Assembly (NCBI GenBank): GCA_027619975.1
Contig: JAQCGX010000022.1
Location: 1 to 54,080, forward strand
Source: Nitrospinota bacterium
Lineage (GTDB): Bacteria > Nitrospinota > Nitrospinia > Nitrospinales > VA-1
Length of the DNA stretch: 54,080 nt
Reading direction: 5' to 3'
In this document: positions 27,142 to 33,721 of the stretch, in pieces
Layout of the letters: each line of letters opens with the position of its first letter
Position numbering within the stretch: position 1 is the first letter of the stretch
The notes under the pieces: generated by a model
Database searches by the model: none
Told to the model about the DNA's origin: nothing
Seen by the model: the letters and a program-made list of their open reading frames with translations, nothing else
Position numbers and translations under genes: made by a program

Positions 27142-29115
27142 ATGTTGGGGAAACAAAAGAGAAGATACACAGCATTTTCATTAGCAATGGTTATGGCATT
27201 CGCCATCTATCTATTGCCCGGTTTGGCGACCGATGCGTATGCGAAGGAAGCATATGCGGGGCAGGCTTTCGCCGAAAAGGCTTTTGCCCAGGAAGTTCTG
27301 GCAGAAGAGGCAGTTAAGGGAGAGGGTGAGCCTGAAATTGAGTGGGGTCAGGACGTATTTTACAAGGACTATGAGGGCAATCCTCTGAAAGGTCCTGTAA
27401 GTGGTTTTCCGGCTCCTGAATTAGGCGAGTCTGATTACAATCATTATGAATTTGCACCCAGTCGGATGATTCTTTGGATTGCCAATCAGCAGCATCTGTA
27501 TTTTGGCAGTTTCGTTCTGGCGGTGCCGATTTTCTGTATGCTCATTGAGTTCGTTGGAATCCGTTCAAGAGAATCAGATCCTGTTATGGCTGGGAAGTAT
27601 GACAGGCTGGCTCACGATCTCATGAAGGTCAGCTTGACGGCTTACTCCTGGACCGCCATCCTGGGTGGCATCCTTCTTTTTACCTTTATTACGTTGTTCC
27701 CTGGTTTCTTCAAGTACATGGCTGGAGTTTTCCGCCCTGTAATGCATGTCTACGCTCTGATGTTTTTGGCGGAGAGTGGGGTTCTGTATGTGTATTACTA
27801 CGGTTGGGATAAGATGCAAGACGATCCTTTTCTGAAATGGATTCATTGCAGTCTTTCAGTTTTATTGAACCTCATCGGTACGGTTTTGATGTATCTGGCC
27901 AATTCATGGGCCACTTTCATGCAGGCTCCCGGTGGTATCGATGAGCAGGGAAGGTTCCTTGGTAACATCTGGCATGTCATTCATTCCACTTTGTGGAATC
28001 CGGTCGGTGTTCACAGGATTCTCGGTAACATCGTTTTTGGTGGTGGTATCGTTGGCGCGTATGCGGCCTATCACTATCTGACAGCTAAAACTGAAGAAGA
28101 AAGAGCGCATTACGACTGGGTTTGTTATGTTGCGATGTTTATCTGTATCTTCGGTTTGATTCCCCTGCCTTTCGCGGGCTACTGGTTGATGAAAGAGGTT
28201 TATGCTTTCCGTCAGCAGATGGGTATCACCCTGATGGGCGGAATCATGGCCTGGCTCTTCATCATTCAGGCGGTTATGATCGGCCTGCTCTTCTTCGCCG
28301 CAAACTCATACCTGCATAACGGGATGGCGCGCGTCAAAGGGGCGCACCGTTATATGAAGTACGCAAAATACATGATTCTGTTGTTGATCGTATGTTTCAC
28401 CATGTGGATGACTCCGCATACCATCGTTATGACTCCTGCAGAGCTCAAGGTCATGGGCGGGGCTCAGCATCCCATTGTTGGGCATTTCGGGGTTATGTCG
28501 GCGAAAAACACTGCGGTTAACCTGATGATCGTTACGACCATTTTATGTTTCCTTCTTTATCAAAGAGCGAATAAGAAAATTACCGTGCCGTGGGCAACCA
28601 TCGGCAATTGCTGGATCGCCGCGATTTTTGTAGGCGCTGCCGCTAATATTGTTTTCTTAGGTGTGTATGGTTATTTTCTTCCTGCTAACGTGCGGGTAGG
28701 GCTCTCCGTACCTCAGGTGTCAACCACTCTGACCACGCTGTTTGTCGGGACGGCCATTAATATTTCCATGTTTAAGGATTCAGAGTCCTATGGAGAAATT
28801 CAGTGGGGAACCCAGTCCAAAGTGGGAACTTACGCAATTTTCCTTCTGGCCATCTCCTTCACCTGGTTGATGGGGCTTATGGGCTACATCCGCTCAGCCG
28901 TAAGGTTGTTCTGGCATGTGACCGAGGTTATTCGCGATAACTCTGTGGATGCCTATACCCTGACCATTGGTGAGGCTGGAAAAATGCTGACATTCAATAC
29001 GCTGTTTGTATGGACACAATTTATAATTGTTTTCTGGATTGCCAGCTTGACCGCCAAAAAAGTACAGGCAGAGGCGCCAGAGGGCATTCCAGTTCCAGCT
29101 CAACAGCAACAGTAA
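27142..29115 (+). CDS. Cytochrome bd-like oxidase subunit I (CydA-like), large variant
   Basis: Large polytopic membrane protein (657 residues). After a signal/anchor (about 8-34) and a five-residue A-x-A-x-x repeat stretch (33-56), the core aligns by eye with CydA. IANQQHLYFGSF (H118) corresponds to the MYHF heme ligand region. GKYDRLAHDLMK corresponds to RYDRLARDFGK, LMFLAESGVLYVYYYGWDKM to FLESTF...FFGWDRL, NSWATFMQAP to NGWMQNP, and NPVGVHRILGNI (H291) to the second heme histidine region. The E. coli MEFQFGTNW glutamates are replaced (LLFTFITLF) and no GRQPW is present. No CydB follows. Bd-like oxidases of this kind occur in Nitrospira and Nitrospina; the terminal acceptor is unproven. 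The start has a strong GGAGG site. Confidence 0.82.
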   Translation: MLGKQKRRYTAFSLAMVMAFAIYLLPGLATDAYAKEAYAGQAFAEKAFAQEVLAEEAVKGEGEPEIEWGQDVFYKDYEGNPLKGPVSGFPAPELGESDYNHYEFAPSRMILWIANQQHLYFGSFVLAVPIFCMLIEFVGIRSRESDPVMAGKYDRLAHDLMKVSLTAYSWTAILGGILLFTFITLFPGFFKYMAGVFRPVMHVYALMFLAESGVLYVYYYGWDKMQDDPFLKWIHCSLSVLLNLIGTVLMYLANSWATFMQAPGGIDEQGRFLGNIWHVIHSTLWNPVGVHRILGNIVFGGGIVGAYAAYHYLTAKTEEERAHYDWVCYVAMFICIFGLIPLPFAGYWLMKEVYAFRQQMGITLMGGIMAWLFIIQAVMIGLLFFAANSYLHNGMARVKGAHRYMKYAKYMILLLIVCFTMWMTPHTIVMTPAELKVMGGAQHPIVGHFGVMSAKNTAVNLMIVTTILCFLLYQRANKKITVPWATIGNCWIAAIFVGAAANIVFLGVYGYFLPANVRVGLSVPQVSTTLTTLFVGTAINISMFKDSESYGEIQWGTQSKVGTYAIFLLAISFTWLMGLMGYIRSAVRLFWHVTEVIRDNSVDAYTLTIGEAGKMLTFNTLFVWTQFIIVFWIASLTAKKVQAEAPEGIPVPAQQQQ

Positions 29116-29183
29116 GATATAGTGGATATTCAGTAATTAGATTGAATAGTTTAATTTGATGGAAAAAAGGAGAGGAGTAAGGA

Positions 29184-30536
29184 ATGTTACCTGAACAGCA
29201 TGACATTTTGTGGACGTATATGACCATGGCGTACACATTTTTCGCACTCTTCGTCTTCGGTAATGTGGTCAAGCATTGCCGGGAACGGGAGGGGGTCAAC
29301 ACCACCTTGTGGGGGGGGATATTTGGTGTTTTGGCTCTGGTAAGTTTTTTTGAAACTGTGCATATGTTCGATTTGACGCAAGTCGAGCAAATCAGTTTCT
29401 TCTTTAATTACCAAATATTAACCGTGTTTGCAATTTTGCTGTGCTGGGGTGTGTTTTTCAAGAGCCAGCAAATCGAAGCTCAATCTCCACCTATTGTCAG
29501 AGCGTTTTTCTTCTGGAGCACGGTTTCTGTATTGCTCGCCGGTTACACCAACTGGTTGCCTCAACAAAGAAGTGATCCGCCTCCGAAGGCGGCGGCAATC
29601 TCTGCAGATCTCACCATGGAAGACTATGTTGAGATGGGCCGTGTCATTGTTATGGGTGCCAAGCAAGTGGCGGGTCAGAAGTCGATCGGAAAAGGTCAGT
29701 GTCCTCTTTGTCACACGTTTGATCCTGGTGATAACATAGGTCGTTGCCCGAATCTGTTCGGTGTTGAAGAGCGGAGTCACGGCCGCATTAAAGAGGATAG
29801 GTATAAAACCAGTCCTGTTGCGATAGGTGAGACAGAGCCGGCCACTGGTACTGTTAAGGGGAAACCCGATCAAATTCCTGCGGAGTACCGAAGAGCGGGA
29901 AGTGCTGATTTGATAGGGGAAGATTATTTGCGTGAATCCCTGATGTGCCCTACCTGTTACGTTGTGACGGGTTATGGTAAGGATGGCGACACTAAAAGTC
30001 CGATGCCTGTTATCAACAAGCCGCCGATCAGTTTAACTCCCGTTGAGTTGAATGCGGTCATCGCCTGGTTGCAATCTAAGGACACTCCTGGTGAGTTTGC
30101 GAAAATTACTGTTCCCCTGCCAACTGGTGGTGGAGCTACAGCGGAAGCCGCTCCTGCAGAAGAAGGCGATAAGCCGGTATTCGTGACTGGGAACGAGTCC
30201 ATGGATCAGATGATCAATACCTTGGGTTGTCCGCTTTGCCACACCATCCCTGGAATTGAGGGAGCGGTTGGAGAGCTCGGACCCAAGCTCCATGAAAAAA
30301 CCAATGCCCCTAATAGAATCAAAGATTCAAACTATAAGGGGAAGGCCAAGAATACCAAGGAGTATGTCAGGGAGTCTATTTTGAGCCCTGGCGCTTATGT
30401 GGTCTTCAATGAGGAAGCAGGCGAGTCCTTTCCAGATGGTCTGATGCCCACAACGTTCGGGCAGATGCTTTCAGTTGAAGCACTGGATAAGCTCGTTGAT
30501 TTTATTAGCCAGACAGAAGCCCCTCCAAAGGGTTGA
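29184..30536 (+). CDS. Membrane-anchored diheme cytochrome c
   Basis: The first 125 residues hold four hydrophobic helices (about 11-30, 42-58, 72-93, 104-122). A periplasmic part follows with two CPLCH heme-c motifs at 173-177 and 349-353, each opening a similar module (GQCPLCHTFDPGDNIGRCPNLFGV and LGCPLCHTIPGIEGAVGELGPKL). Each module ends in a possible Met ligand (KSPMPVI and GLMPTTF). The first module also carries a CPTCY motif at 255-259, which lacks the heme histidine and looks like a degenerate or non-heme site. The linker is PTGGGATAEAAPAEEGD. It probably passes electrons to or from the CydA-like partner 68 bases upstream. A GGAG site precedes the ATG. Confidence 0.88.
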   Translation: MLPEQHDILWTYMTMAYTFFALFVFGNVVKHCREREGVNTTLWGGIFGVLALVSFFETVHMFDLTQVEQISFFFNYQILTVFAILLCWGVFFKSQQIEAQSPPIVRAFFFWSTVSVLLAGYTNWLPQQRSDPPPKAAAISADLTMEDYVEMGRVIVMGAKQVAGQKSIGKGQCPLCHTFDPGDNIGRCPNLFGVEERSHGRIKEDRYKTSPVAIGETEPATGTVKGKPDQIPAEYRRAGSADLIGEDYLRESLMCPTCYVVTGYGKDGDTKSPMPVINKPPISLTPVELNAVIAWLQSKDTPGEFAKITVPLPTGGGATAEAAPAEEGDKPVFVTGNESMDQMINTLGCPLCHTIPGIEGAVGELGPKLHEKTNAPNRIKDSNYKGKAKNTKEYVRESILSPGAYVVFNEEAGESFPDGLMPTTFGQMLSVEALDKLVDFISQTEAPPKG

Positions 30537-30550
30537 TCACATAGGAGAAA

Positions 30551-31558
30551 ATGATGAACAAAACGTTAATGAGTTTCATCGTATTTGTTGGTGGTTTGCT
30601 GGTGTTTCATAATGTGGTGTTTCCCATATTCACAACCAAAGAGCCCGGCTGGATCCTGAACAGGTACGTGTATTATCTAACAATCCCTGCATTCCTGATA
30701 TTTGTTAATATCACTTTGCGGCTGAAGCCTCCGATCGCACTGAATGCGTTAGTGGTTTGGTGTCTGGGCTTCTACTTTTACAAATATATACTTTTTCCAC
30801 CGATTCCCTGGACCCTGTTCATCACTTATATGATGTTGTGGTCAATCGGAACATTCCTTTACATCAGTCAGGATGCGGATACTTTCCGGGAATTTAGAGC
30901 GCCAATCGCCAAGACCATTGCAGGTGAATACAAATTGGCGCGAATGGTTCTTTTTGTCTTGTTGCCGGTCCTGGTTGGGTTTGCAACTTACAAGGCTATC
31001 TATCCTGCTTTCGAAGAACCTGTTGAATTGCGGACGGTGCATCCTGCGCCTCCCGCAACCACCAAAGTTCATGGGAAAACGTATACCCTGGAATCCGCTA
31101 GAAATCCTTTCAGGGTTGACGAGCAGGATAATTATAAAGATAGTTTCCCGTTTCTGGATGCGGATAAAAATGAGTACATGAAAAACGTAACCGAAGGTGG
31201 AACGGTGTTCTTTCAGAACTGCCATTTCTGTCACGGGGATCAGCTCAACGGGCTGGGAATGTTCTCTCATGTGTTTAATCCGACACCGGCGAACTTTATT
31301 GATCCTGGTACCATTGCCATGCTGAGAGAGTCCTTTCTGTTCTGGAGGGTTTCAAAAGGTGGCCCTGGGCTTCCGAACGAATCAACTCCGTGGTCTTCTG
31401 CAATGCCCCCTTGGGAAGAGCATTTGACAACAGAAGAGATTTGGAAGGTCATCCTTTTCGAGTACTGGTACACAGGATGGCATCCAAGGACGTTTGATAC
31501 GGAAGAGAACTATGTCGGTCAATGGGAGAAAGAGGGCAAGCCAAAGGGCATCTACTAA
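30551..31558 (+). CDS. Membrane-anchored monoheme cytochrome c
   Basis: The N-terminal 150 residues contain several hydrophobic helices (about 8-26, 38-55, 62-80, 84-104, 130-148). The C-terminal periplasmic domain has one heme motif, CHFCH (224-228), in GTVFFQNCHFCHGDQLNGLG, and a likely Met ligand in WSSAMPPWEEHLT. The heme-domain layout (FQ.CHFCHGD..NG.G, SAMPPW...L...EIW..I.FEYW) is typical of class I cytochrome c subunits found in nitrite- and sulfur-oxidation clusters. Two ATGs in tandem follow a GGAG site. It sits 14 bases after the diheme cytochrome and 66 before the NxrC-like gene, in one operon. Confidence 0.88.
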   Translation: MMNKTLMSFIVFVGGLLVFHNVVFPIFTTKEPGWILNRYVYYLTIPAFLIFVNITLRLKPPIALNALVVWCLGFYFYKYILFPPIPWTLFITYMMLWSIGTFLYISQDADTFREFRAPIAKTIAGEYKLARMVLFVLLPVLVGFATYKAIYPAFEEPVELRTVHPAPPATTKVHGKTYTLESARNPFRVDEQDNYKDSFPFLDADKNEYMKNVTEGGTVFFQNCHFCHGDQLNGLGMFSHVFNPTPANFIDPGTIAMLRESFLFWRVSKGGPGLPNESTPWSSAMPPWEEHLTTEEIWKVILFEYWYTGWHPRTFDTEENYVGQWEKEGKPKGIY

Positions 31559-31624
31559 CCCGGCCAAGGACCATTTAATAAGTAATAAACACAAACAACC
31601 TTCAAACAGAGGGAACTAGGTGTT

Positions 31625-33346
31625 ATGAATAAGATTAGAAAAATAAACATTGGCCGGTTGTTCTTTCTGGGAGTGATGCTGATAGCATTCTGCCTGTTGG
31701 CATCCCCGGTTGCGGCAGAGCAACCGGCGGACCCTGTAAAAAAAGAACTGCTGGAAAAGGGTAAGAAAGTCTATTACAAACGCTGTGTCTGGTGTCATGG
31801 TGTTGAGGGCGGTGGCGATGGTCCCTCTGCGGATCGTTTATTTACGCGCCCACGTAACTTTATCCAGGGTACGTTCAAGATTCGCCGCACGGACTCAGGC
31901 GAGCTTCCATTGGAAGATGATCTTATCCGTACCGTCAAAAACGGTCTTCCGGGTTCGGCAATGCCGGCCTGGGGTGAGTTTTTGTCGGACGATGAAATCG
32001 TAGCGGTTGTCAACTTTGTTAAAACTCTGGTTCAGGACCGGAGTTTTGATGATGCGGATGATACTGTGAACGTTCAGGATTTTGGCACCAATCCCTGGGG
32101 CACCAAAGCCCCTTATCATTTAGGGATACCGCAGGAAGCCATTGATCAAGGCAAAGAAATTTTTACCAAGAATAAATGCTTTGAGTGTCATGGTGGTGAA
32201 GGTCGCGGCGATGGTAACCCAACTATGAAAGATGATTGGGGTTTCCCGATTGTTGCCGCAAATTGGCAGCAATGCTGGAACTTCCGTGGTAGCCGACGGA
32301 ACCATTACGATCCTTTCAATGTGGTGCGAACTGTTTCCACAGGGTTGAATGGCACGCCGATGCCGAACTTCAAAGATCGTATTACGGTTGAAGACCGGTG
32401 GAAGCTGGCGGCTTTTGTTAACTCTCTTTGTCCAAGAAAGAAAATAGACAACTTGACGAGCAAGCCGATTCCGGATTTTCTCATCAGTTCCAAATACACT
32501 GAAGGGAAAGTTGTTCCCAAGATTGACGATCCTTCCTGGTATATTCCAGATGATGATCCGAGCATCAAACCCTGGGCAAAAGAGTTTAAGGACAACCCAA
32601 AAAAGCATTACATCGCGATGGCGGGCCAGATTACCCGGGGAAAAAGAAACTTTGATCCCAAAACGGATAATCTTTGGGTGTCTTCCCGATGGAGTGCTGA
32701 GGATAATGCGGTTTATTACCTGTTAGAGTATCACCTGCGCTTCATGTCTACCGACCCTGAATATCCGGATGCGGTTGCCATGCAGTGGCCAGCCAAACTT
32801 CAAGATCTCTTTGGAGCTGAAAAGCCTTACTTTATCAATGGCGATTCCAAAAAACCCGTTGATATCTGGAAGGCGAATTTGATGGTACAGGATTACACTC
32901 CGACCAACGCTCCTAATGCAAAGGGGTATCAAGTTAAAGGCAGTGTCCAGGAAATAGTTGGACATGGCATTGAAGCTTTGGAAGTGAAAAAAGGCGGTCA
33001 GGTGGAGATTGTGGATTCTCTTTTTCAACAAGGTAAAGTCAGGGTGATGCTGAGACGATCCTTGAAGACTGAAGGAGAGTTTGACGTACAGATCCCAACT
33101 GAGACCTTCATTCCCGTTTCTTTTTTGCAGTGGGCGGGTGTTGATAAGGAGAAGGATGAGCACATGGCTATTTCAACCTGGTATTACACCATTTTGGAGC
33201 CGCCTCTGCCCGATTCGTTGTACTACATGCCTCCGATCATGGCCGTTGTTTTCATCGGTCTGCAGGGCTGGTTGGTGTGGATGACCAAACGGACTCGAAG
33301 GATGTACGACGAGGGTAAAGTTAGACGAGATATTATTCCTGAATAA
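31625..33346 (+). CDS. Diheme cytochrome c fused to an ethylbenzene-dehydrogenase/NxrC-type heme domain
   Basis: A signal peptide (about 1-31, ending VAA) precedes two class I cytochrome c domains with CVWCH (54-58) and CFECH (185-189) and Met ligands in GSAMPAWG (M113) and GTPMPNF. A third domain of about 230 residues (about 310-540: HYIAMAGQITRGK, NLWVSSRWSAEDNAVYYLLE, DAVAMQWPAKL, VKGSVQEIVG, VRVMLRRSL) has the beta-sandwich pattern of EB_dh-type heme-b subunits such as NxrC/DdhC. A single C-terminal helix (about 541-561) anchors it, followed by a basic tail. It is a good candidate for the electron-transfer subunit of a nitrite-oxidation-linked complex. The DMSO-reductase-family alpha and beta subunits are not in the window. 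Confidence 0.85.
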   Translation: MNKIRKINIGRLFFLGVMLIAFCLLASPVAAEQPADPVKKELLEKGKKVYYKRCVWCHGVEGGGDGPSADRLFTRPRNFIQGTFKIRRTDSGELPLEDDLIRTVKNGLPGSAMPAWGEFLSDDEIVAVVNFVKTLVQDRSFDDADDTVNVQDFGTNPWGTKAPYHLGIPQEAIDQGKEIFTKNKCFECHGGEGRGDGNPTMKDDWGFPIVAANWQQCWNFRGSRRNHYDPFNVVRTVSTGLNGTPMPNFKDRITVEDRWKLAAFVNSLCPRKKIDNLTSKPIPDFLISSKYTEGKVVPKIDDPSWYIPDDDPSIKPWAKEFKDNPKKHYIAMAGQITRGKRNFDPKTDNLWVSSRWSAEDNAVYYLLEYHLRFMSTDPEYPDAVAMQWPAKLQDLFGAEKPYFINGDSKKPVDIWKANLMVQDYTPTNAPNAKGYQVKGSVQEIVGHGIEALEVKKGGQVEIVDSLFQQGKVRVMLRRSLKTEGEFDVQIPTETFIPVSFLQWAGVDKEKDEHMAISTWYYTILEPPLPDSLYYMPPIMAVVFIGLQGWLVWMTKRTRRMYDEGKVRRDIIPE

Positions 33347-33370
33347 TATGTCGTGATAGAAGTGAATATG

Positions 33371-33402
33371 AAAAGCCCGCCGAAAGGCGGGCTTTTTTTT
33401 TG
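33371..33402. terminator. Strong intrinsic terminator of the respiratory operon (bidirectional)
   Basis: The perfect 7-bp stem GCCCGCC / GGCGGGC (33375-33381 and 33386-33392), with a GAAA tetraloop, is followed by nine T residues on the plus strand. On the minus strand the stem is followed by TTTT, so it can also stop rpoZ transcription. It lies 25 bases after the NxrC-like stop. Confidence 0.93.
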
Positions 33403-33481: not shown

Positions 33482-33721
33482 TTATTCCTCTACAGTTTGT
33501 TCCAGATCCATATTTCCTTCAATGATTTCCTTTAGAGCCAGGGAGAAGAAATATTTTGGAGAAGAATACTCAGACGCATCCACCTCAATGGTGGGTTGGG
33601 CGCCTTTTTCGAGCTGGTGAACCCTTTGAGAGACAAGAATGCATAACAGGTACCGGCTCTTTACAACCTCGAGCGCCCTGCGGGTTAATTCGTTATTCTC
33701 CTGAAAATCCAGTGTTAACAC
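33482..33721 (-). CDS. rpoZ: RNA polymerase omega subunit, probable
   Basis: A 79-residue acidic protein with the omega pattern: RRALEVVKSRYLLCILVSQRVHQLEKGAQP followed by YFFSLALKEIIEGNMDLEQ, matching the usual helix with ...R..L...A..R..QL..GA.P and the AL.EI..G.I segment. The start is GTG at 33721 with GGGAG seven bases upstream. Omega helps assemble RNA polymerase and bind ppGpp. The similarity is seen by eye only, and the N terminus is shorter than in E. coli. It is not obviously in an operon: ltaE lies 105 bases upstream on the same strand. Confidence 0.72.
   Translation of the reverse strand: MLTLDFQENNELTRRALEVVKSRYLLCILVSQRVHQLEKGAQPTIEVDASEYSSPKYFFSLALKEIIEGNMDLEQTVEE

Follow-up and report, generated by a model that had tools for sequence, protein, structure and literature searches.

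We tentatively read a four-gene cluster at positions 27142-33346 of a Nitrospinota contig as encoding a membrane respiratory complex of the bd-like/OR-N kind, whose CydA-like subunit would serve in Nitrospinia as a cytochrome c:O2 reductase, and we give this reading a little less than an even chance. The contig (JAQCGX010000022.1 of assembly GCA_027619975.1, here C22) was analysed over all of its 54,080 nucleotides, referred to below as the window, and belongs to a 2.93-Mb genome that is 96.6% complete. The cluster consists of four co-oriented open reading frames (ORFs) on the plus strand, A to D, separated by gaps of 68, 14 and 66 bp. Gene A (27142-29115) encodes a CydA-like integral membrane protein of 657 amino acids (aa) with no CXXCH motif, recognized from its ORF, a PF01654 match and an hhalign alignment to CydA. 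Gene B (29184-30536) encodes a membrane-anchored diheme cytochrome c (450 aa; CXXCH at C173 and C349) and gene C (30551-31558) a membrane-anchored monoheme cytochrome c (335 aa; CXXCH at C224). Gene D (31625-33346) encodes a 573-aa protein in which a diheme cytochrome c (CXXCH at C54 and C185) is joined to a C-terminal EB_dh (ethylbenzene dehydrogenase)/NxrC-type domain and a C-terminal helix, an arrangement known as alternative NxrC. The same inventory had been given in an earlier reading made without database searches (the sequence-only reading), and the ORFs, the PF01654 match and the CXXCH counts bear it out.

The cluster itself is already known, having been published as a set of a bd-like oxidase, an alternative NxrC and two cytochromes c. 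It was described in 2013 in Nitrospina, Nitrospira and anammox bacteria (Lücker 2013, PMC3578206), its members bd-like_3 and alt_NxrC_2 were later reported among the 40 most transcribed genes of N. moscoviensis (Mundinger 2019, PMC6606698), and the same synteny was found again in a study that included two Nitrospinae strains without any canonical heme-copper oxidase (Mueller 2020, PMC8026999). A 2024 study of the phylum assigned most Nitrospinota CydA proteins to OR-N1 and OR-N2, and the cytochrome c:O2 reductase role that it proposes for OR-N is described there as unconfirmed (PMC10839748). Protein A is probably a member of the OR-N family. Our literature search found no structure or purification of an A-D complex. 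What is added here is comparative data, namely on gene order, fusions, occurrence in a group around Poribacteria, ligands and the census of oxidases.

Protein A was matched in 72 of 77 Nitrospinota genomes, so the cluster is not a chance assembly. All four genes were found in order at 33 of the 47 Nitrospinota loci from a named collection and in another order at none, the remaining loci being interrupted by contig ends or containing genes missed by ORF picking; in GC-rich loci, genes missed by the greedy ORF picking were located by tblastn. The order A-B-C-D was likewise kept in 27 of the 29 divergent loci having all four genes. The number of CXXCH motifs was nearly constant among relatives (none in 34/36 A proteins, two in 31/35 B, one in 34/35 C and two in 28/29 D), and the above-usual counts in relatives of A, C and D proved to be fusions. 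In two Nitrospinota genomes (G073 and G001, loci L125 and L126) the A protein is extended at its C terminus by a heme domain with homology to B, and in G192 (L156) a single 729-aa ORF with three CXXCH motifs comprises both C and D, which lends support to physical contacts between A and B and between C and D. Since the gene order is conserved, natural A-B and C-D fusions exist and the heme counts hardly vary, the prediction that A-D form one complex is well supported. The sequence-only reading had proposed as much, and its suggested check of conservation across Nitrospinota found the homologues adjacent.

The CydA ancestry of A is clear in its N-terminal half, where PF01654 matched residues 107-355 (E 5.7e-19) and the profile-profile alignment with CydA (hhalign) had a probability of 98.7%. 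The latter paired H118, H235 and H291 with E. coli CydA His19, His126 and His186, E211 with Glu107, and placed Y204 at Glu99. His118 (codon 27493-27495, plus strand) is thus the equivalent of the high-spin heme ligand His19 and His291 (28012-28014, plus strand) that of the heme b558 ligand His186, both invariant in 36/36 A proteins; Tyr204 (27751-27753, plus strand) is an invariant Tyr in A and a Tyr also in the paralogue described below. The complete list of residues found invariant across the 36 proteins is H118, Y204, H235, H291, H443, M577, M580, R588, W591 and H592. A first global alignment had given His323 as the counterpart of His186; this candidate was dropped, as the profile alignment points to His291 and His323 varies across the wider set. 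The C-terminal part of A is probably homologous to CydA too, because the GRQPW region aligned, in a weak profile match (58%), with R588-L-F-W591-H592, and because the PF01654 match reaches position 407-408 in three relatives. The stretch M577-G-L-M580-G-Y-I-R584-S-A-V-R588-L-F-W591-H592 (28870-28917, plus strand) would then be the counterpart of the CydA segment with Glu445 and GRQPW; in this weaker alignment Glu445 is lost and its position is occupied by L579, flanked by two invariant Met. The sequence alignment gave no conserved Met in A as counterpart of Met393, and no match to the Q-loop was noticed in the global A-CydA alignment, in which no dedicated Q-loop check was made.

The claim of the sequence-only reading that A lacks the MEFQFG glutamates and the GRQPW stretch therefore stands in part. 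The MEFQFG motif is absent and Glu99 is replaced by Tyr204, but Glu107 has its equivalent in E211; GRQPW is likewise missing in its literal form, but its core survives as R588-L-F-W591-H592. With the equivalents of His19 and His186 kept, A has not lost all of its heme ligands, and the view that the set is not a standard bd or cbb3 oxidase is supported.

The description of D as NxrC-like holds for the fold. The EB_dh Pfam match of the window's D is weak (19.6 bits, below the cut-off), that of the natural C-D fusion reaches 71.6 bits, above it, and the EB_dh domain in an AlphaFold2 model of D is of fair quality (blocks mostly 75-93 pLDDT, the model's per-residue confidence). The model matched EbdC (2ivf_C) and Kuenenia NxrC (7b04_C) with template-modelling (TM) scores by target length of 0.72 and 0.55, respectively, and its diheme part matched Kustc0458 (6h5l_B) at 0.72. 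The axial heme b ligands of NxrC/EB_dh gamma subunits are, we assume, a Met and a Lys, and their positions in D were presumed on that basis. The Lys position holds K in 29/35 D proteins; the Met position is Asn405 in the window's D and Met in just 10/35, which makes a canonical heme b in D doubtful. Both presumed ligands are kept in the genome's own NxrC. A D relative with swapped domains, EB_dh first and two heme-c domains after it, was seen at L125 5194-6735 and also at L124.

The case for O2 reduction comes from the census of oxidases. PF00115 (heme-copper oxidase) gave no match over the cut-off in the window's genome or in its single-contig relative G047, a Nitrospinota genome with two nxrA copies, and each of the two encodes only two PF01654 proteins, A and a paralogue, which leaves G047 with no canonical CydA; the single-contig genome G010 has a canonical CydA besides. 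In the window's genome the paralogue (702 aa; G000 contig C9, L113 7572-10993) has extra helices after the first helix, keeps the first three His and H592 and not H443, and is followed by a membrane diheme cytochrome c, so that the two make up a separate bd-like pair and a candidate for the genome's other oxygen reductase. A and the paralogue form separate starred clades in the tree and co-occur in most Nitrospinia genomes. Within Nitrospinia only, A-D is thus one of two O2-reduction candidates, its function not being forced by absences elsewhere.

In the favoured reading, the c-type hemes of D, C and B, five in all, would receive electrons from high-potential carriers of the periplasm (cytochrome c and cupredoxins, with nitrite oxidoreductase, NXR, as a further source in Nitrospinia) and would pass them on to b-type hemes in A, whose ligands would include His118 and His291. 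The Nitrospinia protein would most likely reduce O2, having replaced a heme-copper oxidase, either by itself or together with the genome's other CydA-like protein. Composition, gene order, fusions, ligands kept and lost, independence from NXR and the lack of other recognized O2 reductases in the closed, nxrA-bearing G047 are read from the sequences; we infer the direction of electron flow, O2 as the acceptor and the number and type of hemes in A.

The independence from NXR shows in the distribution of A. Among 194 genomes searched around one named Poribacteria genome (the Poribacteria group, in which only G077 and G078 bear names), A was present in 67 at 75-100% identity, and NxrA was found in none of these 67. 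Family f9 of Nitrospinota has A at 52-56% identity without NxrA, several other lineages also carry A without NxrA, and in the maximum-likelihood tree of A the genomes with NXR do not group together but are interspersed with those lacking it. Even in the window's genome, nxrA, nxrB, a TorD-like chaperone and a soluble NxrC lie on another contig (C17). The sequence-only reading had named nitrite oxidoreductase as an example of a periplasmic dehydrogenase feeding the complex; the comparison does not support the idea that this enzyme defines the set, and an NXR-specific nature of A-D is rejected.

The neighbourhoods of the cluster point to respiration at the level of cytochrome c. At L050 (Poribacteria group), genes for a Rieske protein, a cytochrome b in two ORFs, an 8-heme cytochrome and a cupredoxin-like protein precede A-B-C-D, after which come a second cupredoxin-like protein, an ABC transporter, coxB and coxA, and five further loci of the group agree in part (bc complex, cupredoxin, sometimes aa3 genes). 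A-B-C-D is followed by cupredoxin, coxB and coxA at L155 and L158, A-B-CD by coxB and coxA at L156, and coxA lies nearby at L162. This setting among bc complex, cupredoxin or aa3 genes, which the Poribacteria group shares with four other genomes, favours a cytochrome c-facing complex. The non-NXR genomes bearing A-D have aa3-type oxidases and bc-type cytochrome b or NrfD-type proteins. It is conceivable, if short of probable, that the cluster serves respiration in general and is no mere adjunct to nitrite oxidation: its CydA-based module with five c-type hemes would associate with the bc complex and aa3 oxidase in one supercomplex where NXR is lacking (Poribacteria, other lineages), and nitrite oxidisers and anammox bacteria would have coupled it to NXR.

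Two observations concern enzymes related to NxrA. In G071 (L115 1-11214), A-B-C follows a molybdopterin enzyme that is 24% identical to NxrA and has its own NxrB-, TorD- and NxrC-like genes, possibly another type II dimethyl sulfoxide (DMSO) reductase coupled to the same module. In the Nitrospinota genome G049 (C73:2164-5616), the sole NxrA match at E<=1e-100 has an identity of 56%, versus the usual 93-96%, which may reflect either an NXR of another lineage or an error in binning.

Several points weigh against O2 reduction by A. The cluster is present in anammox bacteria (PMC3578206), whose way of life does not involve O2, and the aa3-type oxidases of the non-NXR genomes would make O2 reduction by A redundant there. 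The canonical ligands Glu445 and Met393 are missing from A according to alignments partly backed by the weaker C-terminal profile match, and the AlphaFold2 model of A, built from 31 homologues, had a mean pLDDT of 43.7, too poor for heme placement. Furthermore, O2 may in fact be reduced by the C9 paralogue, which has a diheme partner of its own.

The alternative that survives best, unlikely as we judge it, is a quinone-linked analogue of complex III, which would use proton motive force to drive electrons uphill from NXR or cytochrome c to quinone in nitrite oxidisers and anammox bacteria, and would carry them from quinol to cupredoxin in aa3-bearing aerobes. An alternative complex III (ACIII) was proposed in PMC3578206, where the anammox clusters are also reported, and reverse electron flow in PMC6606698; the cupredoxin and coxB-coxA genes after the cluster at L155 and L158, and coxB-coxA at L156, are arranged as in ACIII-cox clusters, and Mrp/Nuo-type antiporter subunits occur in two related clusters. 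However, all canonical quinol-binding residues were reported to be lacking (PMC3578206), Poribacteria-group loci have a bc complex directly next to the cluster, and every genome tested already encodes either a bc-type cytochrome b or NrfD-type proteins (which may include ACIII), so that no genome forces a complex III role on A-D. O2 reduction is preferred over quinone coupling because of the Nitrospinia census and the CydA ancestry of A. An improbable variant would make A half of a heterodimer with the 702-aa paralogue, which would hold the catalytic site and receive electrons from A-D; CydAA' association has been hypothesised (PMC10839748) and both proteins occur together in most Nitrospinia genomes, but the genes are unlinked, the paralogue has its own diheme partner, and genomes of the Poribacteria group, like several others, have A with no such paralogue detected. 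Least likely is an NXR-specific membrane anchor and electron acceptor with D as dedicated gamma subunit, since, for all the NxrC/EbdC fold of D, the adjacency to NXR genes in G217 and (with TorD and NxrB) in G156, and the immediate acceptor of the NXR-C heme being unknown (PMC8387239), the NxrA-less genomes, the scattered NXR bearers, Asn405 and the separate nxrABC contig already contradict it as a general role.

Around the cluster, the strong terminator noted in the sequence-only reading was found at 33370-33397 on the plus strand (Rho-independent; 12-bp stem, 4-nt loop, T run). Upstream neighbours encode HisD, DUF2064, PAP2 and heptosyltransferases, and downstream ones a threonine-aldolase-like lyase, a porin, Amt and flagellar proteins; among the neighbouring window genes identified there was no cydB, as that reading had stated, and no NXR gene. 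Between the cluster and the lyase gene, a 79-aa ORF with a GTG start (33482-33721, minus strand) resembles, by eye, the RNA polymerase omega subunit. In the two A-B fusion loci (L125 634-6735 and L126 1867-10258), one or two Mrp/Nuo-type antiporter subunits (PF00361) lie between A and C, and these relatives resemble TO_2, a complex described as restricted to Ca. Manganitrophaceae (PMC9040806).

Several marine nitrite oxidisers have no canonical heme-copper oxidase, and their way of reducing O2 has yet to be explained (PMC8026999); in the closed relative G047 the recognized candidates are narrowed to the A-D complex and one paralogue. Since genomes of the Poribacteria group carry the same complex and no NxrA, organisms other than the slow-growing nitrite oxidisers offer a way to study its basic reaction, and A-D should not be annotated as NXR-specific.

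Compared with canonical cytochrome bd (E. coli CydAB), A shares the N-terminal half, the counterparts of His19, His126 and His186, Glu107 and the Arg and Trp of GRQPW; unlike it, the cluster has no CydB nearby, Glu99, Met393 and Glu445 are replaced, and five c-type hemes reside on A's partner proteins. With the NxrC/EbdC gamma subunits of type II DMSO reductases, D shares the fold of its C-terminal domain but adds two c-type hemes and membrane helices, and the presumed heme-b Met is not conserved. TO_2 of Ca. Manganitrophaceae (PMC9040806) combines a bd-like protein, cytochromes and MrpD-like subunits, as do the L125 and L126 relatives, whereas the window's cluster has no MrpD-like subunits. 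The OR-N family of the cytochrome bd superfamily, as far as Murali 2021 is relayed in PMC10839748 and PMC12342949, is alike in its CydA-like protein, lack of CydB, cytochrome c surroundings and occurrence in Nitrospinota. Closest is the published bd-like/alternative NxrC cluster (PMC3578206; PMC6606698; PMC8026999), known from the same phylum (Nitrospina gracilis), with a bd-like protein, cytochromes c and a membrane alternative NxrC that has two heme-c sites, as D does; its mono- and diheme cytochromes in the 2013 account match those of the window, in which no NXR genes were seen, while the 2020 account counts di- and triheme ones, and nothing important sets the two clusters apart.

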